NCBI GenBank assembly: GCA_024641945.1 | Contig: JAHECD010000008.1 | Span: 1-64,000 of the forward strand | Reading direction: 5' to 3' | Length of the DNA stretch: 64,000 nt | From: Rubrivivax sp. | GTDB lineage: Bacteria; Pseudomonadota; Gammaproteobacteria; Burkholderiales; Burkholderiaceae_C | Shown: piece after piece, positions 43,594 through 54,419 of the stretch | How positions within the stretch are numbered: the stretch's first letter is position 1 | Layout of the letters: the number at the start of each line of letters is the position of its first letter | The notes under the pieces: model-generated | The model's database searches: none | Told to the model about the DNA's origin: nothing | What the model saw: the letters and a program-made list of their open reading frames with translations, nothing else | Position numbers and translations under genes: made by a program

Positions 43594-45906
43594 ATGAACG
43601 ACCTTTTCGATCCCCCGCCGGCGCCGCCAGCCGAGCCCTCCGATGCCATTGCGCTGGCCGACTATGCCGAGCGTGCCTACCTCGAATATGCGCTGAGCGT
43701 CGTCAAGGGCCGTGCGCTGCCCGACGTGTGCGACGGTTGCAAGCCGGTGCAGCGGCGCATCCTGTATTCGATGCAGCGCATGGGCCTCGGCTTCTCGGGC
43801 AACACCGGCGCCAAACCGGTGAAAAGTGCGCGGGTGGTGGGCGATGTGCTCGGCAGATTCCACCCGCACGGCGACCAGGCCGCCTACGACGCGCTCGTGC
43901 GCATGGCGCAGAACTTCAGCCAGCGCTACCCGCTGATCGACGGGCAGGGCAACTTCGGCTCGCGCGACGGCGACGGCGCGGCGGCGATGCGCTACACCGA
44001 AGCGCGGCTGTCGTCGATCGCGCGCCTGCTGCTCGACGAGATCGACGAGGGCACGGTCGATTTCCAGCCCAATTACGACGGCTCGACGGAGGAGCCCCGG
44101 CAATTGCCGGCGCGCCTGCCGTTCGTGCTGCTGAACGGCGCGAGCGGTATCGCGGTCGGCCTGGCCACCGAGATCCCGAGTCACAACCTGCGCGAGGTGG
44201 CGGCCGCTGCGGTGGCGCTCATCCGCAACGACAAGCTTGCCGACGAAGACCTGTTTGCGCTGCTGCCGGCGCCCGACTTCCCCGGCGGCGGGCAGGTCAT
44301 CAGCAGTGCGGCCGAGATCCGCGCGGCGTACGCCGGCGGGCGCGGCAGCCTGAAGGTGCGCGCGCGCTGGAAGATCGAGGACCTGGCGCGCGGCCAGTGG
44401 CAACTCGTCGTCACCGAACTGCCGCCGGGCACGAGTTCGCAGAAGGTGCTCGAAGAGATCGAGGAGCTCACCAACCCGAAGATCAAGGCCGGCAAGAAGG
44501 CGCTGTCGTCGGACCAGGTCCAGCTCAAGGCCGCGATCCTGTCGGTGCTCGATGCGGTGCGAGACGAGTCGGGCAAGGAAGCCGCGGTGCGCCTGGTCTT
44601 CGAGCCCAAGAGCCGCACCATCGGCCAGCAGGAGCTGATCACCACGCTGCTCGCGCAGACCTCGCTCGAGACCACGGCCCCGGTGAACCTCACGATGGTC
44701 GGCCTGGACGGCCGCCCGGTGCAGAAGAGCCTGCGCCAGATGCTCGTCGAGTGGATCGCATTCCGCCAGACCACGGTGCAGCGCCGGTCGCAGCATCGCC
44801 TGGACAAGGTGCTGGACCGCATCCATGTGCTCGAGGGCCGGCAGCTCGTGCTGCTGAACATCGACGAGGTGATTCACATCATCCGCCACGCCGACGAGCC
44901 CAAGCCGGCCTTGATCGAGCGCTTCAAGTTGAGCGACCGGCAGGCCGAGGACATCCTGGACATCCGTCTGCGCCAGCTCGCACGGCTGGAGGCGATCAAG
45001 ATCGAACAGGAGCTCTCGAGCCTGCGCGACGAGCAGAAGAAGCTCGAAGAGATCCTCGGCAGCCCGGCGGCGCTGAAGCGGCTGCTGATCAGGGAGATCG
45101 AGTCCGATGCCAAGGCGCACGGCGACGAGCGCCGCACATTGATCCTGGAAGACCGCAAGGCGGTGGCCGAGGTGCGTGTCGTCGACGAGCCCGTGACGGT
45201 GGTGGTGAGCCTCAAAGGCTGGGTGCGTGCGCTCAAGGGCCACGAGGTCGACGCGGCGGCGCTGCAGTTCAAGCCGGGGGACGCGCTGTACGGCACGTTC
45301 CCTTGCCGCAGTGTCGATACGCTGGTGGTCTTCGGCAGCAACGGGCGGGTGTACAGCGTCGCGGCGTCGCTGCTGCCCGGCGGCCGTGGCGACGGCACGC
45401 CGATCACTACGCTGGTCGATCTCGAGGCCGGCACCCAGCCGGCGCATTATTTTGCGGGCGCCGCCGACACGACGCTGCTGCTGGCCAACACGGGCGGCTT
45501 CGGCCTGCAGGCCAAGGCGGGCGATCTGCACGGACGCAACAAGGGCGGCAAGAGCTTTCTCGCGGTCGACGCGGCCGACCGGGTGTTGCCGCCGGTCGCC
45601 GTGGCGGCAGGCCAAACGCAGGTGGCCTGCCTCGCGATGGACGGGCGCCTGCTCGTCTTTGCGCTCGACGAGCTGAAATTGCAGTCCAACGGCGGGCGCG
45701 GGCTCACGCTGATGGACGTCGACGCCAAGGCGCCGCTGGTATCGGTGGCGACGTTCGCCGACAGCCTGCAGGTGCTCGGCAGCGGGCGCGGCGGCAAGCC
45801 GAAGGACGAGGTGCTCAAGGGTGCCGGCCTGGCGCGGCATGTCGGGCGGCGCGCACGCAAGGGCCACAAGGTCGAAGGCATGGTGAAGGTGTTGCGCGTC
45901 GTCTGA
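43594..45906 (+). CDS. parC: DNA topoisomerase IV subunit A
   Basis: A 770-residue DNA-breaking subunit of topoisomerase IV. The catalytic Tyr134 lies in [10 protein letters not shown], and the DNA-gate helix and QRDR are [28 protein letters not shown]. The residue equal to E. coli ParC Ser80 is Gln95 and that equal to Glu84 is Asp99. The C-terminal half contains the coiled-coil ([26 protein letters not shown]) and a five- or six-bladed pinwheel with GyrA-box-like repeats. Its length (770) and DNA-gate style fit ParC rather than GyrA. It is separated from parE by the GNAT and gspAB genes. Confidence 0.95.
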
Positions 45907-46091: not shown

Positions 46092-46958
46092 ATGCCTGGG
46101 TTCGAGATCGTTGCGCGCGAGGATTTTTCAGACGTCACCTATCTGCTGGAGGTGCGTCATCCGCTGATGGCCAAGGCCGCGAAGGCGGGCCAGTTCGTGA
46201 TCGTGATGGAGCACGAACACGGTGAGCGGATCCCGCTGACGATCGCCGATTTCGACCGCGACAAGGGCACGATCACGCTCGTGATCCAGGCCGTCGGAAA
46301 GACCACGCGGGAGATGCAGCAGAACTGCAAGGTCGGCACGCACCTGCATGCGCTGGTCGGGCCGATGGGCATCCCGAGTCACATCGGGCACGCGAAGAAG
46401 GTGTTGTGCATCGGCGGCGGCCTGGGCGTCGCGCCGATCTACCCGCAGGCGCGTGCCTACAAGGAGAGTGGCGCCTACGTCATCGCCGTGCTGGGTTTCA
46501 GGAACCGGGCGCTGATGTTCTGGGAGGACAAGTTCCGTGCTTGCTGCGACGAACTGATCGTCTGCACCGACGACGGTTCGGCCGGCCTCAAGGGTCTGGT
46601 CACCGAGGGCATCAAGCAGGCCGTCTCGGCGCATGCCGACATCGTCGAGGCGGTCGCCATCGGCCCGCCGATCATGATGAAGGGCTGTGCCGACGCGACC
46701 CGACCGCATGGCATCAAGACCATGGTCAGCCTGAACCCGGTGATGGTCGACGGCACCGGCATGTGCGGCGGCTGCCGCGTGAAGATCGGCGAGCAGATCA
46801 GGTTTGCCTGCGTCGATGGTCCCGACTTCGACGGCCATCAGGTCGACTTCGACGACCTGATGAAGCGCCTGGGCCGCTACAAGCCCACCGAGAAGGCCGC
46901 CTTGCAGAACTGGGAGGCCAGCTGTCGCCTGCGCGGCGGCCCTGGCCACGCCCACTGA
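46092..46958 (+). CDS. NfnA-like ferredoxin:NAD(P) oxidoreductase subunit
   Basis: A 288-residue flavoprotein of the FNR/dihydroorotate-dehydrogenase-electron-transfer type, like the small NfnA (SudB) subunit of electron-bifurcating transhydrogenases. The FAD domain is residues 1-100 (GERIPLTIADFD), and the NAD(P) domain starts at VLCIGGGLGVAPIYPQA. A [2Fe-2S] site is near the C-terminus. Cys225, Cys228 and Cys240 (CGGC...FAC), together with Asp220, reproduce the three-Cys/one-Asp ligand set known in Thermotoga NfnA. The start at 46092 was chosen for the MPGFEIVARE opening; a GTG five codons earlier is possible. It is the first gene of the operon. Confidence 0.88.
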   Translation: MPGFEIVAREDFSDVTYLLEVRHPLMAKAAKAGQFVIVMEHEHGERIPLTIADFDRDKGTITLVIQAVGKTTREMQQNCKVGTHLHALVGPMGIPSHIGHAKKVLCIGGGLGVAPIYPQARAYKESGAYVIAVLGFRNRALMFWEDKFRACCDELIVCTDDGSAGLKGLVTEGIKQAVSAHADIVEAVAIGPPIMMKGCADATRPHGIKTMVSLNPVMVDGTGMCGGCRVKIGEQIRFACVDGPDFDGHQVDFDDLMKRLGRYKPTEKAALQNWEASCRLRGGPGHAH

Positions 46959-47000
46959 GGACCGCACCGACCTCACGAGATCTCGTCGAAGGAGCCGTCC

Positions 47001-48509
47001 ATGGCCAAGAAGAAGACGATCCGCAGCATCCCGCAGGCGCGCACGCCGATGCCCGAGCAACGCCCCGAGGTGCGGGTGAAGAATTTCGACGAAGTGGCCT
47101 GCGGCTACCAGCTCGAAGACGCCCTGGTCGAGGCCTCGCGCTGCCTCGACTGTGCTGACCAGCCGTGTGTGCGCGGCTGTCCGGTCGGGATCGACATCCC
47201 GGGCTTCATCAAGAAGATCGAGGGCAAGAATTTCCACGGCGCCTACGACGTCATCACCAACACCAACCTGCTGCCGTCGGTCTGCGGCCGGGTGTGCCCG
47301 CAGGAGAACCAGTGCGAGGGTGTCTGCACGGTCGGGGAGTCGCTCGAACCGGTGGCCATCGGACGCCTGGAGCGCTTCGTCGGCGACATGGCGATCGCCG
47401 AGGGCTGGGCCAACGTGCCCTACATCGAGCACAACCACTACCGTGTGGGCATCGTCGGATCGGGCCCTGCCGGCATGGCCTGCGCCGCCGACATGGCCAA
47501 GGCCGGCTGCGAGGTCGTGGTCTATGAGGCCTTTCACGAGCCGGGTGGCGTGCTGAAGTACGGCATCCCCGATTTCCGCCTGCCCAACCCCACGGTCGAC
47601 GTCGAGATCGACAAGCTCCGGAAACTCGGCATCCAGTTCGAGTGCAACACGCTGGTCGGCCGGCTGTTCACGATCGAGCAGATGCTGACCGAGATGGGTT
47701 TCCAAGCGGTCTTCGTCGGCACTGGCGCGGGCTATCCGACTTTCATGGGCATTCCGGGTGAGTCGCTGAATGGCGTGCTGTCGGCCAACGAGTTGCTGAC
47801 ACGCTGCAACCTGATGCACGGGCGCGAGTTCCCGAATTACGACACCCCGCTGCAGCCCGGAAACCGGGTCGCCGTGATCGGCGCCGGCAATACCGCGATG
47901 GATGCGATGCGCGTGTCCTTGCGCCTGGGGGCCGAGAAGGTCTATTGCGTCTACCGCCGCAGCGCCGCGGAAGCACCGGCCCGCGCGGAGGAGATCCACC
48001 ACGCTGGCCAGGAGGGCGTGGATTTCCAGTGGCTGACCGCGCCTGTCGAGTTGCTCGGCGACGAAAAGAACAATGTGCGCGCGATGCGCTGCGAGCGCAT
48101 GGAACTCGGCGAGCCCGACGCGTCCGGCCGGCGTCGGCCGGTCCCGGTGCCCGGGAGCTTGTTCGAGATCGAGTGCGACAGCGTCGTCTTTGCGATCGGC
48201 ACCAACGCCAACCCGATCCTCGGCCAGACCTCGGGGCTGAAGCTGGACCGGCGCGGCTACATCGCCACCGACGAACACCTCGCGACGTCGATCGCGGGTG
48301 TCTATGCCGGGGGCGACATCGTCACCGGTGCGGCCACGGTGATCCAGGCCATGGGCGCCGGGCGCCGAGCCGCGCGCGCGATGAAGGCCTACCTGGGCCT
48401 GCGCGACACGGAGGTCGTGTACACGCCGGCAGGCTCCGATCCTGCCGGGCTGCTGTTCGGCATCGACCGTCGCGAACGCCGCTACGCACGGGTGCACCTC
48501 GAATCATGA
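47001..48509 (+). CDS. NfnB/GltA-like NAD(P) oxidoreductase
   Basis: A 502-residue flavoprotein related to the glutamate synthase small chain (GltD/GltA family) and to NfnB. An N-terminal double [4Fe-4S] domain has Cys48, Cys51, Cys56, Cys60 and Cys95, Cys99, Cys105, Cys109. The FAD motif is GIVGSGPAGMACAADMA (150-166) and the second dinucleotide motif VIGAGNTAMDAMR lies near 295. The last block VYAGGDIVTGAATVIQAMGAGRRAA is the usual FAD contact. No glutamate synthase large subunit is nearby, and the neighbour NfnA-like protein suggests an Nfn-type pair rather than glutamate synthase. A good AAGGAG precedes the ATG. Confidence 0.9.
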   Translation: MAKKKTIRSIPQARTPMPEQRPEVRVKNFDEVACGYQLEDALVEASRCLDCADQPCVRGCPVGIDIPGFIKKIEGKNFHGAYDVITNTNLLPSVCGRVCPQENQCEGVCTVGESLEPVAIGRLERFVGDMAIAEGWANVPYIEHNHYRVGIVGSGPAGMACAADMAKAGCEVVVYEAFHEPGGVLKYGIPDFRLPNPTVDVEIDKLRKLGIQFECNTLVGRLFTIEQMLTEMGFQAVFVGTGAGYPTFMGIPGESLNGVLSANELLTRCNLMHGREFPNYDTPLQPGNRVAVIGAGNTAMDAMRVSLRLGAEKVYCVYRRSAAEAPARAEEIHHAGQEGVDFQWLTAPVELLGDEKNNVRAMRCERMELGEPDASGRRRPVPVPGSLFEIECDSVVFAIGTNANPILGQTSGLKLDRRGYIATDEHLATSIAGVYAGGDIVTGAATVIQAMGAGRRAARAMKAYLGLRDTEVVYTPAGSDPAGLLFGIDRRERRYARVHLES

Positions 48510-48598
48510 CAACCGCCACGCTCATGTGGTTCGCTGCCCGCCGGGGGCACGCGCGACCGGCTTGGGAGCGGCCCTGCGCCGACTGGAGCTTGCTTTGA
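48506..48598 (+). CDS. Mini-ORF bridging two oxidoreductase genes, 30 codons
   Basis: Thirty codons (starting MTTATLMWFAARRG) fill the only gap between the GltA-like and alpha-subunit genes. The ATG overlaps the upstream stop as ATGA, and its TGA overlaps the TTG start of the next gene as TTGA. No ribosome binding site of its own is clear. It may be a coupling device that carries ribosomes to a weak TTG start, or a chance frame. I know no relative. Confidence 0.35.
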   Translation: MTTATLMWFAARRGHARPAWERPCADWSLL

Positions 48599-50499
48599 AC
48601 GCCATCCTCGCCCCCGCCCGCTCCGACGCCGCGAATGCCTCACGTGCGGCCGAGTCGATCGCCGAGCACATCGTCGAGGTCATCAGCGACTCCGGCGAAG
48701 GCGCCCAGCGCTGCGGCCAGTCGCTGGCGGCGATCGCCGCGCGCATGGGCAACGGCATCTGGACCACCGAGATCATCCCGGCCGAGATCCAGCCGCCGGC
48801 GCGCAGCGTGGCCGGTGCGAGCGGCATACGCATCCGCATCGGCTCGCAGCGTGTGACGAACGGCGGTGACCAGACCGACCTCGTCGTCGCCTTCAACGAG
48901 CAGGTGTTGATCGGGCGTGTGCAGGCGCGCGAACTCAAGCCGGGCGCGACCATCCTGCTCGAGAGCATGTGGCGCACGCACCGCGACCCCGCCGTGGCCG
49001 CCTCGTACCAGGAGACGGTCGACGCGCTGCGCAAGGACGGGTTCGACGTGCACGAGATTCCGATGGAAGAGCGCTGCAAGGAACTCGTGAGCGACCCGCG
49101 CAAGGGCAAGAACATGTTCGTGCTGGGCATGCTCTGCAACCTCTACGGGTTGGACGCACAACTCGCGCGCGAGCAGATCGCACGCATCTTCGGCAAGAAG
49201 GACGAGAAGATCATCAAGTCCAACCTCGCGCTCTACGAGGCCGGCGCGGTCTGGGGCGATGCCCACCTGCCGATCAAGTACAACATCCCGGCCACGCGCT
49301 CGAAGGAGGCGCAGATCGTCGTCAACGGCAATACCGCCATTGCGCTGGGTGTGATGGCCTCGGGCATGGACATCTGCGCGATGTACCCGATCACGCCCGC
49401 GACCTCGGCCTCGCATTACCTCAGCGAGGTGTTCGAGAAGGTCGGCGGCCTGGTCCACCAGGCCGAGGACGAGATCGCGGCGTGCGCGTTTGCGATCGGT
49501 GCGTCCTACGCCGGCAAGTGCGCGGTGACCATCACGTCGGGCCCGGGTTTTTCGCTCAAGCAAGAGGCGATCGGGCTGGCGGTGATGGCCGAGATCCCGC
49601 TCGTCGTCGTCAACGTGCAGCGCGGCGGGCCGAGCACCGGGCAGCCGACGAAGGTGGAGCAGGGCGACCTGTACGCGGCGGTCTTCGGCAGCCACGGCGA
49701 TGCGCCCAAGGTCGTGCTCGCACCGTGCAGCATCGAAGACTGCTTCTATTCGATGATCACCGCGCGCAAGATCGCCGAGACCTTCGGCATGGTCGTCGTC
49801 GTGCTGTCCGACGCGAGCCTGGCGACCGCGCAGCAGCCGTTCCCACGCCCGGTCTTCAGCGAGGAGTGGCTGGCACCGCCGGTCGACCAGACGCCGGTGC
49901 CGGCGCGCGCCAGGCCCTACGACTGGGATCCGGTCACCGGCCTGTCGCGGCGCTTCCAGCCCGGGCAGCCGGGCGGCATGCACACGCTCACCGGCCTCGC
50001 GCACGACCGCGCGAGCAAGGTCGCCTACGACCCGTCGATCAACGAGGAGGGGCTGCGTGCACGCAGCCTCAAGCTGGCGGCCTTGCAGAAGACGCTGAAG
50101 ACACCACCGGTGTTCGGGGATGACTCGGGCGACATGCTGCTCGTCGGCTGGGGCAGCACGATGGGTGTCATCGAGGAGGCCGTGGCCCGGCTGCGCAACG
50201 AGGGTCTGAAGGTCTCTTCGCTGCACCTGCGTTTCATCCAGCCGATGCCGTCGGGCATCCGCGAGATCCTTCAGCGCTTCACGCATGTCATGACCATCGA
50301 GGGCACCTGGTCGGACAAGCTCGAGGATGAACTGATCGACGAGGACAACCGCCGCTATGCGCCGCTGGCGATGATGCTGCGCTCGCGCTTCCTCGTCGAC
50401 GTCGACTGCTGGAGCGAGGCACGCGGCCAGCCGATCAAGCCCGGCGCCGTCGCCGCCGTCGTCCGCCAGGCATTGCAACGCAAGGGCAGCGCATCATGA
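48595..50499 (+). CDS. 2-oxoacid:ferredoxin oxidoreductase alpha subunit
   Basis: A 634-residue KorA-type chain with the gamma (about 1-200) and alpha (about 230-634) domains fused. With the beta subunit it oxidatively decarboxylates a 2-oxoacid to the acyl-CoA and CO2 using thiamine diphosphate and reducing ferredoxin. The gamma part has SDSGEGAQRCGQSLAAIAARMG and GDQTDLVVAFNEQ. The alpha part starts ICAMYPITPATSASHYLSEVFEKVGG and has VNVQRGGPSTGQPTKVEQGDLYAAVFG and SLHLRFIQPMPSGIREIL. The start is probably TTG at 48595 with GGAG six bases upstream; a GTG at 48526 would add 23 residues. The last four bases overlap the beta gene. Confidence 0.9.
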   Translation: MNAILAPARSDAANASRAAESIAEHIVEVISDSGEGAQRCGQSLAAIAARMGNGIWTTEIIPAEIQPPARSVAGASGIRIRIGSQRVTNGGDQTDLVVAFNEQVLIGRVQARELKPGATILLESMWRTHRDPAVAASYQETVDALRKDGFDVHEIPMEERCKELVSDPRKGKNMFVLGMLCNLYGLDAQLAREQIARIFGKKDEKIIKSNLALYEAGAVWGDAHLPIKYNIPATRSKEAQIVVNGNTAIALGVMASGMDICAMYPITPATSASHYLSEVFEKVGGLVHQAEDEIAACAFAIGASYAGKCAVTITSGPGFSLKQEAIGLAVMAEIPLVVVNVQRGGPSTGQPTKVEQGDLYAAVFGSHGDAPKVVLAPCSIEDCFYSMITARKIAETFGMVVVVLSDASLATAQQPFPRPVFSEEWLAPPVDQTPVPARARPYDWDPVTGLSRRFQPGQPGGMHTLTGLAHDRASKVAYDPSINEEGLRARSLKLAALQKTLKTPPVFGDDSGDMLLVGWGSTMGVIEEAVARLRNEGLKVSSLHLRFIQPMPSGIREILQRFTHVMTIEGTWSDKLEDELIDEDNRRYAPLAMMLRSRFLVDVDCWSEARGQPIKPGAVAAVVRQALQRKGSAS

Positions 50500-51485
50500 G
50501 CCTCTCACTGAGCCAATGTGTCATCAAGCTGCACGAGGAGCACCACGCCCTCGAGGATTACCAAGGGGGCGTGCCGCGCTGGTGCAGCGGCTGCGGTGAC
50601 AACGCCATCCTGGCGGCGATGCAGCGCCTTTGCAGCGAGGAGAACCTCGCGCCGGAGAACACCGTCTTTGTGTCCGGCATCGGCTGCTCGAGCCGGCTGC
50701 CGCACTACATGAAAACCTACGGATTCCACGGCATCCACGGCCGAGCGTTCCCGGTGGCCGAGGGCATCAAGATGGCGCGGCCGGACCTGCACGTCTTCGT
50801 CAGCACCGGCGACGGCGACTGCTGCAGCATCGGCGCCGCACACTGGATCCACGCCATCCGCTACAACATGAACATCACGGTCATCCTGCACGACAACCAC
50901 GTGTACGGACTGACGAAGAAGCAGGCTTCGCCGACCTCGCCGCGCGGCCTGAAGAGCAACACCACGCCGTACGGCGCGACGCTCGAACCGATGAATCCGC
51001 TGACGGTGACGCTGGGCGTGAAGGGTGCGTCGTTCGTCGCGCAGGCGGTCGACTGGGTGCCCGAGGTGCTGTACGACATCGTGAAGGCCGCCTTCAAGCA
51101 CCGTGGTTTCTCGTTCGTCCGTGTGCTTCAGCGCTGCCCCGAATTCATGCCCAAGGCCTTCGACCCCTGGCTGCACGACCCCGCGCGCACGATGCTGCTG
51201 ACGCACGACAACGGGCTGCAGTTGAGCCCGTCGCTTTCGGTGGCCTACCGCAACCAGCGGGTGCACGATCCGCTCGATATCGACCGGGCGCGCGAGATCG
51301 CGTCGCTGGACGAACCCATCCCCGTGGGCATCCTCTACCGCAATCCCGACGCGGCGTGCTACGAAGACCTGCGCCACGCTGGCCAGTTGCGCTCGCCCGA
51401 GTACATCCGCGCCGGCCTGAACCGGGAGTTCGACAAATACACCGTCTGGCCTGATGAGGAGGCCCCGGCACAGCGGGCCGCCTGA
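50496..51485 (+). CDS. 2-oxoacid:ferredoxin oxidoreductase beta subunit
   Basis: A 329-residue thiamine diphosphate-binding subunit of a KorAB-type enzyme. The [4Fe-4S] cysteines match the KorB pattern: Cys30 and Cys33 (RWCSGCGD), Cys64 (GIGCSSR) and Cys214 (LQRCPEF). The ThDP/Mg motif is GDGDCCSIGAAHWIHAIRYNMNITVILHDNHVYGLTKKQASPTS. The ATG overlaps the alpha stop (ATGA), so the subunits should be made together. The sizes of alpha and beta fit the 2-oxoglutarate:ferredoxin oxidoreductase of Thauera and relatives, but 2-oxoglutarate versus another acid cannot be settled here. Confidence 0.92.
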   Translation: MSLSLSQCVIKLHEEHHALEDYQGGVPRWCSGCGDNAILAAMQRLCSEENLAPENTVFVSGIGCSSRLPHYMKTYGFHGIHGRAFPVAEGIKMARPDLHVFVSTGDGDCCSIGAAHWIHAIRYNMNITVILHDNHVYGLTKKQASPTSPRGLKSNTTPYGATLEPMNPLTVTLGVKGASFVAQAVDWVPEVLYDIVKAAFKHRGFSFVRVLQRCPEFMPKAFDPWLHDPARTMLLTHDNGLQLSPSLSVAYRNQRVHDPLDIDRAREIASLDEPIPVGILYRNPDAACYEDLRHAGQLRSPEYIRAGLNREFDKYTVWPDEEAPAQRAA

Positions 51486-51513
51486 CCGGCCTCCGTCGCC
51501 GCTGAAAGCCCCT

Positions 51514-51591
51514 ATGGCCTCCACACACGCACCCCGTTGTCCGCCCGCCGAGGAGCCGCCCAGCCCCTTTGCGTGGCTGGGCGGGCATTGA
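51514..51591 (+). CDS. Mini-ORF upstream of ferredoxin fusion gene, 25 codons
   Basis: Twenty-five codons (MASTHAPRCPPAEEP...) end in TGA one base before the ATG of the next gene (TGA-T-ATG). The second half of the mini-ORF contains both arms of a 10-bp hairpin, so a ribosome translating it would open the stem and stop beside the next start. This gap, like the one before the alpha subunit, is occupied by a small frame. Chance cannot be excluded. Confidence 0.35.
   Translation: MASTHAPRCPPAEEPPSPFAWLGGH
51556..51584 (+). repeat. Hairpin before ferredoxin fusion gene
   Basis: Perfect 10-bp arms CCGCCCAGCC and GGCTGGGCGG enclose a nine-base loop and end nine bases before ATG 51593. AGGAG lies just in front of the stem (51551-51555), too far from the ATG unless the stem brings it closer. 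No T run follows. Confidence 0.8.
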
Positions 51592-51592
51592 T

Positions 51593-53770
51593 ATGGACAT
51601 GCAAGCCAAGCCCCACGACCCCTTGATCTTCCACCTCACCGGCCGGCGGTCTGGGGACGGTCTGGCGCCCATCGACGGCCTCGCGCTGCGCCCCGCGCTG
51701 CTCGCGCCGTACCGCGAAATAGCCGCGCTGCGCCACGACTTCCCCGTCGTGTTGACCGAGAGTCCGGTGGACCCGGAATTTGTACGGTCGCTGAACTCGA
51801 TGGTGGACCAGGTGCTGCAGGACGTGGCGCCACGCGGCATCGCCGGCGAGCGCCTGCGTCGCCATGCCTTGCAGCTCGAGCAGGGCATCCGCAGTGCGAT
51901 CGATGCCGGCACCGAAGAGACGCTGGCCGAGGCGTGGAATCGCGTGGCAGCCGAGCTCGGTGCGCGCGAGGGCGAGACGCTCGAGCAAGTGCTGGCGCAT
52001 GCTGGCGGCGCCTTGCCCGCCGAGGGACCGTTGATCGGCTGCACCCCGGCGATGCCGGCACGCCTGCTGACCCACGCGTGGCGCGCCGCCCATCGGGCCA
52101 AGGCCCGGCGCTTCCAGGCCGACCTGAGCCGGCTGGTGCAGAAGCTGTCGGACATCCTGCGCGCCGCGTACAGCCATTCGCAGGCCGGGCGCCAGCCGCA
52201 GAGCCTGCGTGAGTCGCTCGGCGGCCCGCACCAGGACGCGTTCGACTTCGAGCGGCTGTCGCAGATCGTCGGCAAGGGCGTGCCGCGCGATGAACTGCCG
52301 CCGGCGCGGCGCGAGCGGCTCGAGCGCACGCTGTCGGCGCTCGAGTGGCAGACGGTGTTCGACCTGGACGGCAGCGATGCCGCGGACGACTACGTCTTCG
52401 ACAACTGCGCGGCCGTGGCCGCCGCCTGCCGCGAGCGCATGCCCCACGTCGTGGCGCTGTCGAAGGCCCTGGCCATCGCGGAACTCGAGGTCGCCGGACG
52501 GTATGTCGAGGCGGAGCACGACCTCTTCTTCGAGGCCTTCGACGCCGACATGCTGGACGCCGAGGAGCGGGCGCGTTTTCCCGATTACCTGGTGTGCGTC
52601 CCGCCGGATCGCAACGAGGCGCCGGAGAACGCCCACCTGATGGACCTGCTGTCCTCGGGCCTGCCAGTGAAGGTGCTGGTGCAGACGTCGGACTTGCTCG
52701 AGGACCAGGCGGCCGGCGCTGCGCACTTTGCCTTCGGCGTGCGCAGCGCGCGGCTGGCGACCGCAGCGATGGGGCTGGGCGGCATGTTCGTGCTGCAGTG
52801 CGCGGCGTCCAATCTGGTGGCCCTGCGCGGCCGGATCGCGCAGGGCATGGCTTGCCGCGAGCCGGCGCTGTTCAGCGTCTACGCCGCTTCGGATGCATCG
52901 GCGGGTCCGCTACCGCCCTACCTGGCCGCGGCGGCGGCGATGCAATCGCGTGCCTTCCCGGCGTTCAGTTACGACGCCGCGGCCGGCGCCAATTGGGCCG
53001 AGCGCTTCTCGCTCGAAAACAACCCGATGCAGGAGGCGGACTGGTCGGTCGAGTCGGTGGACTTCAGCGACGCCGCGTTGCAGCGCGCCAGCGAGCGCTG
53101 CGCCTTCACCTTTGCCGACTTCGTGCTCTGCGATCCGCGCCATGCCGCGCACTTTGCGGTCGTGCCGCGTGCGCGTTGGCACGCGCAGATGATGCCGGCC
53201 GCCGACTGGCTGCAGCTCAGCGAAGCCGATGCGGCGCAGCACGTGCCGTACCTGCTGGCGGTCGACCCGCACGACGTGATGCACCGGGTGATCGTCGACG
53301 CACGCGTGATGCAGGCCACCCGGCGATGCCTGTTGCTGTGGCATCGCCTGCAGGAGCATGGCGGCGTGCACGACTCGTATGCCGAGCGGCTGTTGGCACG
53401 CGAGAAGGCCGCATGGGCCGCGTCGCAGCAGGCCCAACCCGCAACGCTCGCGCCGGAGAAGGAGGCTGCCCCGGCGGCGGCCGACGTCGCAGCGAGCGGA
53501 CCCGCGGCGCCCGCGCACTCGCGCGACGAGGCGTGGATCGACACCGCGCGCTGCCCGAGCTGCAACGAGTGCCAGCTGATCAACGATCGTCTGTTCGGTT
53601 ACGACGAGCGCAAGCAGGCGTTCATCAAGGACCTCGCGGCCGGCACCTACCGCCAGCTCGTCGAGGCCGCCGAGAGCTGCCAGGTCGCCATCATTCACCC
53701 AGGCAAGCCGCGCGACCCGAAGGAACCCGGGCTGGACGAGCTGCTGGCGCGCGCCGAGCCGTTTCGTTGA
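51593..53770 (+). CDS. Large protein with C-terminal ferredoxin domain
   Basis: A 725-residue protein. The last 80 residues are a single-cluster ferredoxin: Cys654, Cys657, Cys660 (CPSCNEC) and Cys696 (AESCQVAIIHPG), a C-x2-C-x2-C-x35-C set that should bind one [4Fe-4S] or [3Fe-4S] centre. A Pro/Ala linker (about 605-640) joins it to roughly 600 residues that I cannot name. That part is helical in its first third and has blocks such as ALFSVYAASDASAGPLPPYLAAAAAMQSRAFPAFSYD. As last gene of the Nfn/Kor unit it is the likely electron carrier or scaffold. An in-frame TTG lies at 51569 and ATG again at 51599. Confidence 0.75.
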   Translation: MDMQAKPHDPLIFHLTGRRSGDGLAPIDGLALRPALLAPYREIAALRHDFPVVLTESPVDPEFVRSLNSMVDQVLQDVAPRGIAGERLRRHALQLEQGIRSAIDAGTEETLAEAWNRVAAELGAREGETLEQVLAHAGGALPAEGPLIGCTPAMPARLLTHAWRAAHRAKARRFQADLSRLVQKLSDILRAAYSHSQAGRQPQSLRESLGGPHQDAFDFERLSQIVGKGVPRDELPPARRERLERTLSALEWQTVFDLDGSDAADDYVFDNCAAVAAACRERMPHVVALSKALAIAELEVAGRYVEAEHDLFFEAFDADMLDAEERARFPDYLVCVPPDRNEAPENAHLMDLLSSGLPVKVLVQTSDLLEDQAAGAAHFAFGVRSARLATAAMGLGGMFVLQCAASNLVALRGRIAQGMACREPALFSVYAASDASAGPLPPYLAAAAAMQSRAFPAFSYDAAAGANWAERFSLENNPMQEADWSVESVDFSDAALQRASERCAFTFADFVLCDPRHAAHFAVVPRARWHAQMMPAADWLQLSEADAAQHVPYLLAVDPHDVMHRVIVDARVMQATRRCLLLWHRLQEHGGVHDSYAERLLAREKAAWAASQQAQPATLAPEKEAAPAAADVAASGPAAPAHSRDEAWIDTARCPSCNECQLINDRLFGYDERKQAFIKDLAAGTYRQLVEAAESCQVAIIHPGKPRDPKEPGLDELLARAEPFR

Positions 53771-53810: not shown

Positions 53811-54419
53811 TCAGCGCACGCGGGCCGATTTGGCGATGGCCTCCGCGCTCGACAGATGGCGATCGAAGAAGGCGAGCCGCGGCGCGGTGTAGGTGATCGC
53901 GAACAGCTCGCCGTTGCGTACCGTGCCCCAGCCGATGCCACGCAGGCGCACGTCGTCTTCCTTGCGGATGCCGCTGAACTCGAAGCGGAAGCCCGGCCCG
54001 CCGGCAAACGACACCGGGGCAACCTTGTCAAGCTGGAAGGTGGAGCCGCCGCGCGCATACAGACCCTCGAACAGCCCGACCACGTCGCTCGCCTGCATCG
54101 TCGACTTGAAGGCCAGCGGCTTCTGGCCCTTGGGCTCCGAAGGCGTGGGCGCGATCAGCGCACCGTCCTTGAGCCCCACGTAGAAGCGCAGCGTGTCGAC
54201 CGTGATGCCGTCCTGAGTCCAGGTGGGCGTGTTGTCGCCCATGCCGCGCTCGAACTGGTTCCATGGCTTGTCGACGGTGACGACGAGCCGCTCCTTCAGC
54301 GTGATGTCACCGCTGGCCACGTGGGACACCTGTGCGCAGCCGGCGAGCCAGAGCAGGGCGATGATGCCGAAGGCCCGGGCGATGGGGCGGGTCGGCGAAA
54401 TGCCTGGTCCTTTGGTCAT
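53811..54419 (-). CDS. Predicted lipoprotein, unknown function
   Basis: A 202-residue protein with a signal peptide and lipobox LAGC (Cys28). The following residues AQV give no inner-membrane retention Asp, so outer-membrane sorting is likely. The mature part is beta-strand-rich (ITLKERLVVTVDKPWNQFERGM, GGPGFRFEFSG, GELFAITYTAPRLAFFDRHL). I recognise no family. Its ATG overlaps the stop of the M48 protease gene (ATGA), so it is the last of three coupled envelope genes. Confidence 0.75.
   Translation of the reverse strand: MTKGPGISPTRPIARAFGIIALLWLAGCAQVSHVASGDITLKERLVVTVDKPWNQFERGMGDNTPTWTQDGITVDTLRFYVGLKDGALIAPTPSEPKGQKPLAFKSTMQASDVVGLFEGLYARGGSTFQLDKVAPVSFAGGPGFRFEFSGIRKEDDVRLRGIGWGTVRNGELFAITYTAPRLAFFDRHLSSAEAIAKSARVR

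Follow-up and report, generated by a model that had tools for sequence, protein, structure and literature searches.

Each of the enzyme families considered here is already known, as are 2-oxoacid oxidoreductases coupled to GltD-type flavoproteins. An example of this is the 2-oxoglutarate:NADP+ oxidoreductase of Azoarcus evansii, which has three subunits (KorCAB), with a GltD/NfnB-type flavoprotein and, as far as is known, without NfnA. One study describes KorAB of Thauera and AadN of Rhodopseudomonas as alternative electron donors for benzoyl-CoA reductase, AadN of R. palustris being a single fused Nfn homologue that is proposed as the source of reduced ferredoxin in strains without KorAB (PMC9973337). 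A survey of bifurcating enzymes reported Nfn from anaerobes and, as the sole exception, from one aerobe (PMC6085437). Here we describe a set of five genes, two for Nfn-like flavoproteins (nfnA and nfnB), korA, korB and fdxX, in a 64,000-nucleotide stretch of DNA from Rubrivivax sp. (contig JAHECD010000008.1), hereafter the window. FdxX is a name coined in the present analysis for the product of the fifth gene.

The set resembles each of the described systems in part. As with Nfn of Thermotoga maritima (4ylf) and NfnI of Pyrococcus furiosus (5jca), its predicted Nfn is encoded by two separate genes and has flavin, cluster, NAD and NADP motifs; unlike in those organisms, it is encoded together with a 2-oxoacid oxidoreductase and FdxX. 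AadN is likewise an Nfn homologue in a proteobacterium (R. palustris is facultative), whereas here separate NfnA and NfnB occur alongside KorAB, in a genome without a bcrB match. By description only, the enzymes of Thauera aromatica and A. evansii share KorAB with the set, and that of Azoarcus presumably the GltD/NfnB-type flavoprotein as well. Unlike Azoarcus KorCAB, the set has the full NfnAB pair and FdxX. We regard the set as a form of the known 2-oxoacid:NAD(P) oxidoreductases with an added pseudoenzyme-ferredoxin subunit, and it combines Kor and AadN-like donor kinds in one operon; no description of the set or of the carrier derived from pyruvate:ferredoxin oxidoreductase (PFOR) was found in the open-licence literature by titles and abstract openings.

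The five genes probably form one co-inherited Kor-FdxX-Nfn redox module linking 2-oxoacids and NAD(P), a reading based on gene content, gene order, ligands, FdxX homology, motif loss and co-occurrence, all of them read from sequence. Positions 46092-53770 are occupied by five intact rightward frames (Table 1), and the Pfam and NCBIfam assignments bear out the families given in a preliminary description of this DNA. Stop/start overlaps had also been described there. One exists, between korA and korB (ATGA, 50496-50499), but the other junctions are gaps, of 42 nucleotides (nfnA-nfnB), about 85 (nfnB-korA) and 107 (korB-fdxX).

A scan for the fifth protein gave 23 loci, mostly from metagenome bins: 18 from Burkholderiales (to which we presume some of the genera belong) or betaproteobacteria, three from Lysobacterales/Lysobacter, one from Pseudomonadota and one from Acidobacteria. 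All five genes are found in identical order and strand in 18 of these loci. In four of the remaining five (L004, L015, L016, L023) the contig itself begins partway through the module, and in the other (L001) a korA fragment adjoins a group II intron reverse-transcriptase/maturase open reading frame at a contig end. This frame (86-1804; RVT_1, GIIM) occupies the place of the N-terminal part of korA, and an intron has possibly been inserted there. A second set came from 399 sampled genomes of the order, with the best two candidates per genome scored, and 12 genomes, our own included, have an FdxX-type match. Nine of the 11 other carriers have the five genes in order (in L094 fdxX extends past the contig end) and two are truncated by contig ends. 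The sets overlap, with L084 and L085 of the second probably the same contigs as L011 and L009 of the first. The preliminary description had asked whether homologous clusters always lack the Nfn-like genes; gene neighbourhoods favour the module, these genes being present in the 18 of 23 and nine of 11 loci and the rest being cut short. Since the five-gene order recurs in relatives of many genera it is beyond chance, and because the flanking genes vary between loci the module appears to move, or to be retained, as a block. Pairwise distances between FdxX copies correlate with those of KorA (0.91), NfnB (0.90), KorB (0.88) and NfnA (0.73), with no outside control gene.

Among 150 sampled genomes of the family, FdxX was matched in five. 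KorA at 70% identity or above occurs in four of these and in no other genome; in one of the four (G017) fdxX is interrupted by a run of N, and in the fifth FdxX carrier (G101) KorA is found only as pieces on separate contigs. NfnA at 76% identity or above is limited to the same five genomes. No FdxX match was found in G094, the sole genome of the same genus sampled. Other KorA-like proteins of the family are at most 38% identical, so the KorA of the module can be regarded as a separate subgroup. Frames of 786-845 amino acids, 51-58% identical to NfnA and presumably fused Nfn, occur in four family genomes, one of them a carrier.

The fifth protein changes how the module is to be understood. It had been described as a ferredoxin-fusion protein, which missed its origin as a decayed C-terminal half of a PFOR. 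The start is most likely ATG 51593, as 18 of 19 relatives read MD at the matching place. Its sole Pfam match at cut-off is the C-terminal Fer4_13, found in 20/20 FdxX members at E values up to 1, and for residues 1-640 no model scored above cut-off (Pfam for 20 members, NCBIfam for the window protein only). A search of the PDB gave no useful match except ferredoxin I. The best matches of a profile of 20 FdxX sequences are frames of about 1650 amino acids (E 3e-74 and 1e-68); further POR-type proteins follow at 6e-28 to 2e-10. With the C-terminal halves of three PFORs of about 1640 amino acids, FdxX aligns end to end by hhalign (711 columns, E 1.8e-61, 27% identity), beginning at about residue 755 of the PFOR of locus L051. 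The match persists at E 4e-61 in a one-sequence search when the terminal ferredoxin of the PFOR is removed, and none of 400 shuffled controls was reported. Together, sequence comparison indicates that FdxX shares ancestry with the C-terminal half of PFOR. A derivation from KorB was also considered and is ruled out, a KorB profile having no relation by the same method (0.4% probability).

FdxX is without the N-terminal POR_N/POR domains and the 2[4Fe-4S] domain, and the cysteines of the PFOR inner ferredoxin are gapped or substituted. One of four proximal-cluster cysteines is left (Cys150), these four positions presumably being the cluster ligands. The thiamine motif of PFOR domain VI, GGDG...YSNTGG, is gone, and the window protein has PPDRNEAPEN in its place; no GDG is present there in the 24 FdxX covering the region or in eight further ones. 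A stretch resembling IPPDRNDAPEN replaces it in 23 of 24 close members, exactly so in four. The terminal CxxCxxC...C is intact in 24/24 covering members and 8/8 further ones, and the PFOR-derived part retains its whole length in every one of the 20 that were aligned. Identity to the window copy is 72-94% for residues 643-725, 62-78% for 331-600 and 44-71% for 1-330. The median proportions of non-synonymous (pN) and synonymous (pS) change are 0.22 and 0.50 in FdxX, and 0.12-0.13 and 0.40-0.43 in its partners, so FdxX is under purifying selection, weaker than that on the partners. In a FastTree phylogeny a long branch with full support separates all FdxX from both PFOR groups, the deeper order being unresolved. 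The motif loss, the unbroken CxxCxxC...C and the purifying selection thus mark FdxX as a pseudoenzyme of long standing that is still maintained and whose ferredoxin end is intact, and not as a recent pseudogene. We read it as a retired catalytic half that may act as an electron carrier between Kor and Nfn.

The two flavoproteins carry the features expected of Nfn. NfnA belongs to the DHODB-FeS/sulfide-dehydrogenase-like families and NfnB to GltA/Fer4_20 (TIGR01316, 581 bits; cut-off 472). Against solved structures, NfnA matches 5jca_S at E 3.2e-95 and 4ylf_A at 1e-72, and NfnB matches 4ylf_B at 8.3e-170 and 5jca_L at 3e-146. The intact iron-sulfur ligands reported for the module hold up across the aligned relatives where Nfn and Kor were compared. 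In NfnA, numbered from ATG 46092, the set Asp220, Cys225, Cys228 and Cys240 presumably binds the [2Fe-2S] cluster: MVDGTGMCGGCRV is identical in 20/20 aligned copies, as is the third cysteine, and the NAD motif GGGLGVAP is also present in all 20. In NfnB the same is true of C48, C51, C56, C60, C99, C105, C109 and the Glu of GRLER, which we take to be [4Fe-4S] ligands from Nfn and dihydropyrimidine dehydrogenase, and of the FAD/NADPH motifs G[SA]GPAG and GAGNTAMDA. NfnA scores 322 bits with 5jca and 168 with 5vj7, presumably NfnII, and NAD(H) is for this reason the favoured partner of NfnA.

KorA scores 508 bits with TIGR03710 (cut-off 483) and matches 6n2n_A at E 4.5e-84, while KorB scores 257 bits with the PorB/KorB model TIGR02177, slightly below the cut-off of 262, and matches TPP_enzyme_C at E 3.6e-28 and 6n2n_B at 4.9e-53. 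The POR, POR_N and thiamine-diphosphate domains, the GDG motif and the proximal [4Fe-4S] cysteines are all found in KorAB. GDGD and C30, C33, C64 and C214 of KorB are present in 23/23 copies, and the KorA motifs compared are kept in the copies covering them, with one M for Q. The korA start is most likely TTG 48595, as relatives L003 and G017 have in-frame stops upstream of the matching position. The nearest solved Kor chains, 6n2n A and B, are those of a 2-oxoglutarate enzyme of the reverse tricarboxylic acid (TCA) cycle in Magnetococcus, and by analogy 2-oxoglutarate is the most likely substrate of KorAB. A second KorA, 27-28% identical, is encoded a few kb away from the module in L003, L005, L020 and L089. 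Three of these loci (L003, L005 and L020) also have a KorB-like match beside this KorA and two (L003 and L089) a 31%-identical NfnB-like match; the second KorA is followed by a CBS-domain protein in L003 and L005.

Table 1. Features of the module and its surroundings (window positions unless a locus is named)
Feature	Position	Strand	Description
nfnA-like (NfnS, 288 aa)	46092..46958	+	predicted FAD/NAD(H) flavoprotein with [2Fe-2S]
nfnB-like (NfnL, 502 aa)	47001..48509	+	predicted FAD/NADP(H) flavoprotein, two [4Fe-4S] clusters
korA (634 aa, TTG start likely)	48595..50499	+	fused gamma-alpha subunit, 2-oxoacid:ferredoxin oxidoreductase
korB (329 aa)	50496..51485	+	thiamine-diphosphate/[4Fe-4S] subunit
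fdxX (725 aa)	51593..53770	+	decayed PFOR C-terminal half with intact terminal ferredoxin
FdxX C-terminal single [4Fe-4S] ferredoxin domain	53519..53767	+	residues 643-725; Cys654, 657, 660, 696
FNR-type palindrome candidate, weak, TTGCGTTACCTCAA	45952..45965	+	upstream of nfnA, 3 mismatches
rnfB-PFOR-rnfC-rnfD-rnfE-rnfA cluster	L051 5559-15874		PFOR of about 1640 aa with its own terminal ferredoxin

In the window a DNA topoisomerase IV/gyrase A-type gene (43594-45906) lies upstream of nfnA on the same strand, and the next long frame 3' of fdxX (53811-54419) is on the opposite strand. Genes for fumarate-reductase/succinate-dehydrogenase-type flavoprotein and FeS proteins, located 0.7-7.4 kb from fdxX, and for a cyclic-nucleotide-binding protein are near the module in 5/23 loci of the first set (domains checked in L002 and L014), and a CBS protein gene is near it in 4/23 (checked in L003 and L005).

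The long relatives of FdxX have a different setting. Pfam and the PDB (6cin, E 3.4e-91) identify the L051 protein as a PFOR, to which a C-terminal Fer4_13 is added. Such long PFORs occur in 16 of the 399 order genomes (best two candidates per genome), and in all 11 loci examined (L051, L052, L095-L103) the gene lies within an rnfB-PFOR-rnfC-rnfD-rnfE-rnfA cluster. The Rnf names rest on L051 proteins as queries, of which RnfC, D, E and A score above the model cut-off and RnfB below. A PFOR inside an Rnf operon suggests direct delivery of electrons from pyruvate to Rnf. FdxX matches the C-terminal half of these enzymes, including the terminal Fer4_13; unlike them, it has no N-terminal catalytic half, no 2[4Fe-4S] domain and no GDG...N motif, and only one of the four proximal cysteines. 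Among the best two candidates per genome, no order genome is listed with both FdxX and the long PFOR. None of 26 carrier genomes has rnfC above cut-off, completeness being stated for three carriers only.

Other pairings of this kind were also seen. In another lineage a PFOR frame of 1677 amino acids is followed by a fused NfnB-NfnA frame of 982 (L053, 7404-15342; the longest frames overlap), so the pairing of a PFOR-type enzyme with Nfn is not limited to this module. A two-gene PFOR (677 and 558 amino acids) in L058 (5479-15192) is followed by genes that on visual inspection resemble those of a 2Fe-2S protein and an NfnB-like flavoprotein and sucC/sucD, a hint of a PFOR-type 2-oxoglutarate enzyme. 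In our own genome, contig C154 (L054, 3059-7786) encodes a second 2-oxoacid oxidoreductase (gamma, alpha and beta). The GltD-like flavoprotein next to it ends in a PorD-type ferredoxin, so that a tethered ferredoxin occurs here too. The module is like such phenylglyoxylate dehydrogenase/PorGABD-type enzymes in having 2-oxoacid oxidoreductase genes adjoining an NfnB/GltD-type flavoprotein; unlike the module, L054 has neither NfnA nor FdxX and belongs to other POR families.

Carrier physiology was assessed in the 26 carrier genomes. The E1 component of 2-oxoglutarate dehydrogenase scores over 200 bits in 25 of them (above cut-off in 21) and is present in our own genome, which rules out the module as a replacement for this enzyme. 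Nitrogenase-level NifH occurs in four carriers (one confirmed by name), BchL/BchX-level matches in four (the name being confirmed for our own genome and one more) and BcrB above cut-off in seven. Having BchL and BchX, our own genome is probably able to make bacteriochlorophyll, the synthesis of which requires reduced ferredoxin.

FNR-type palindromes were counted by mismatches to the FNR consensus. The best site upstream of nfnA in the window is not significant, as sites with three mismatches or fewer occur in 474/1084 tiles. With at most two mismatches, FNR-like palindromes are present in the 330 nucleotides upstream of 15/18 modules, against 85/1084 tiles of the same loci and 128/1615 GC-matched tiles, the relatives not being independent of each other. 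The idea of an FNR box upstream of the module thus fits the relatives as a group and does not hold for the window alone. The window as a whole (1-64000) has 14 such palindromes (mean 4.84 and maximum 12 in 100 shuffles), none upstream of the module. Together, carrier gene content, the genes near the module and FNR-like sites lean towards use of the module at low oxygen.

From the evidence above we infer the route of the electrons, a complex, the substrate and direction of the reaction, bifurcation and a response to oxygen as follows. KorAB would convert a 2-oxoacid, most likely 2-oxoglutarate, and coenzyme A (CoA) to acyl-CoA and CO2, reversibly and with exchange of low-potential electrons. 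The terminal [4Fe-4S] ferredoxin of FdxX, offered to KorB, would accept these electrons and pass them to NfnB, and NfnAB would link them to NADP(H) as well as NAD(H) through flavin-based con-/bifurcation. The net forward reaction would be 2-oxoacid + CoA + NADH + 2 NADP+ -> acyl-CoA + CO2 + NAD+ + 2 NADPH, and would be reversible. Bacteria that have no Rnf would probably use it when oxygen is low, in addition to their ordinary dehydrogenase. More tentatively, FdxX may be a pseudoenzyme docking subunit that holds KorAB and NfnAB in one complex, its tethered ferredoxin passing electrons between them; the same tentative reading has it descend from a PFOR half of the type now working beside Rnf, with catalysis lost.

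Several points weigh against this picture. Some Nfn homologues may bifurcate and others may not, sequence alone not being decisive (PMC6405883). Correlated distances are also produced by simple co-inheritance, and the absences among carriers are soft because many are incomplete assemblies. FdxX evolves almost twice as fast as its partner proteins, and the IPPDRNDAPEN-like stretch is not kept in L056 or in the distant L090-L093. Carriers have no common low-potential sink, 13/26 being without nifH-, bchL/bchX- and bcrB-level matches. Just 10/26 have narG above cut-off, our own genome not among them; it has no nifH, bcrB or narG match at the levels used, and no convincing FNR site in its upstream region. 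Supply of nitrogenase, chlorophyll synthesis or benzoyl-CoA reductase as the sole role of the module is ruled out by the same 13 carriers.

The alternatives differ in which part of the Kor-FdxX-Nfn module they dispute. NfnAB may be a plain, non-bifurcating ferredoxin:NADP oxidoreductase, and the module a 2-oxoglutarate:NADP+ oxidoreductase of the kind reported for A. evansii. In its favour are the known coupling of Kor to a flavoprotein of GltD type and the GltD-PorD fusion that adjoins the second oxidoreductase of our own genome without an NfnA-type subunit (L054). However, NfnA with its [2Fe-2S] and NAD motifs is present wherever the contig extends far enough upstream (18/23 and 9/11 loci), and its higher score with NfnI (5jca) than with the presumed NfnII (5vj7) also argues against this explanation, which we consider doubtful. 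Kor and Nfn could instead be co-regulated yet independent soluble enzymes that share ordinary ferredoxins, with FdxX as the ferredoxin of the operon and its PFOR part as inert ballast or a regulatory or assembly scaffold. Separate subunits, the gaps of 85-107 nucleotides around korA and fdxX, the far greater conservation of residues 643-725 (72-94%) than of 1-330 (44-71%) and the variability in distant FdxX of the stretch replacing the thiamine motif are consistent with this. It is nevertheless unlikely, given that the PFOR-derived part is kept at full length in 20/20 aligned FdxX, with 62-78% identity at 331-600. A reductive module, using NADPH to form 2-oxoglutarate from succinyl-CoA and CO2, is similarly improbable: it would fit the fumarate-reductase/succinate-dehydrogenase-type genes near fdxX in 5/23 loci and a closest solved Kor, 6n2n, that is presumably a reverse-TCA enzyme, but the distances of these genes vary, they are not shown in the 18 remaining loci (the flanks of several of which are short), and oxidative E1 is found in nearly all carriers.

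A compact, transferable Kor-Nfn unit would show how NADPH, NADH and low-potential electrons are tied together without Rnf, in cells that also hold an ordinary 2-oxoglutarate dehydrogenase and, in some, bacteriochlorophyll genes. If FdxX does dock KorAB and NfnAB, the module would amount to a 2-oxoacid:NAD(P) oxidoreductase that channels electrons and con- or bifurcates them, in bacteria also capable of respiration or of bacteriochlorophyll synthesis. FdxX itself would be a traceable example of half of a large redox enzyme being converted to an electron carrier.

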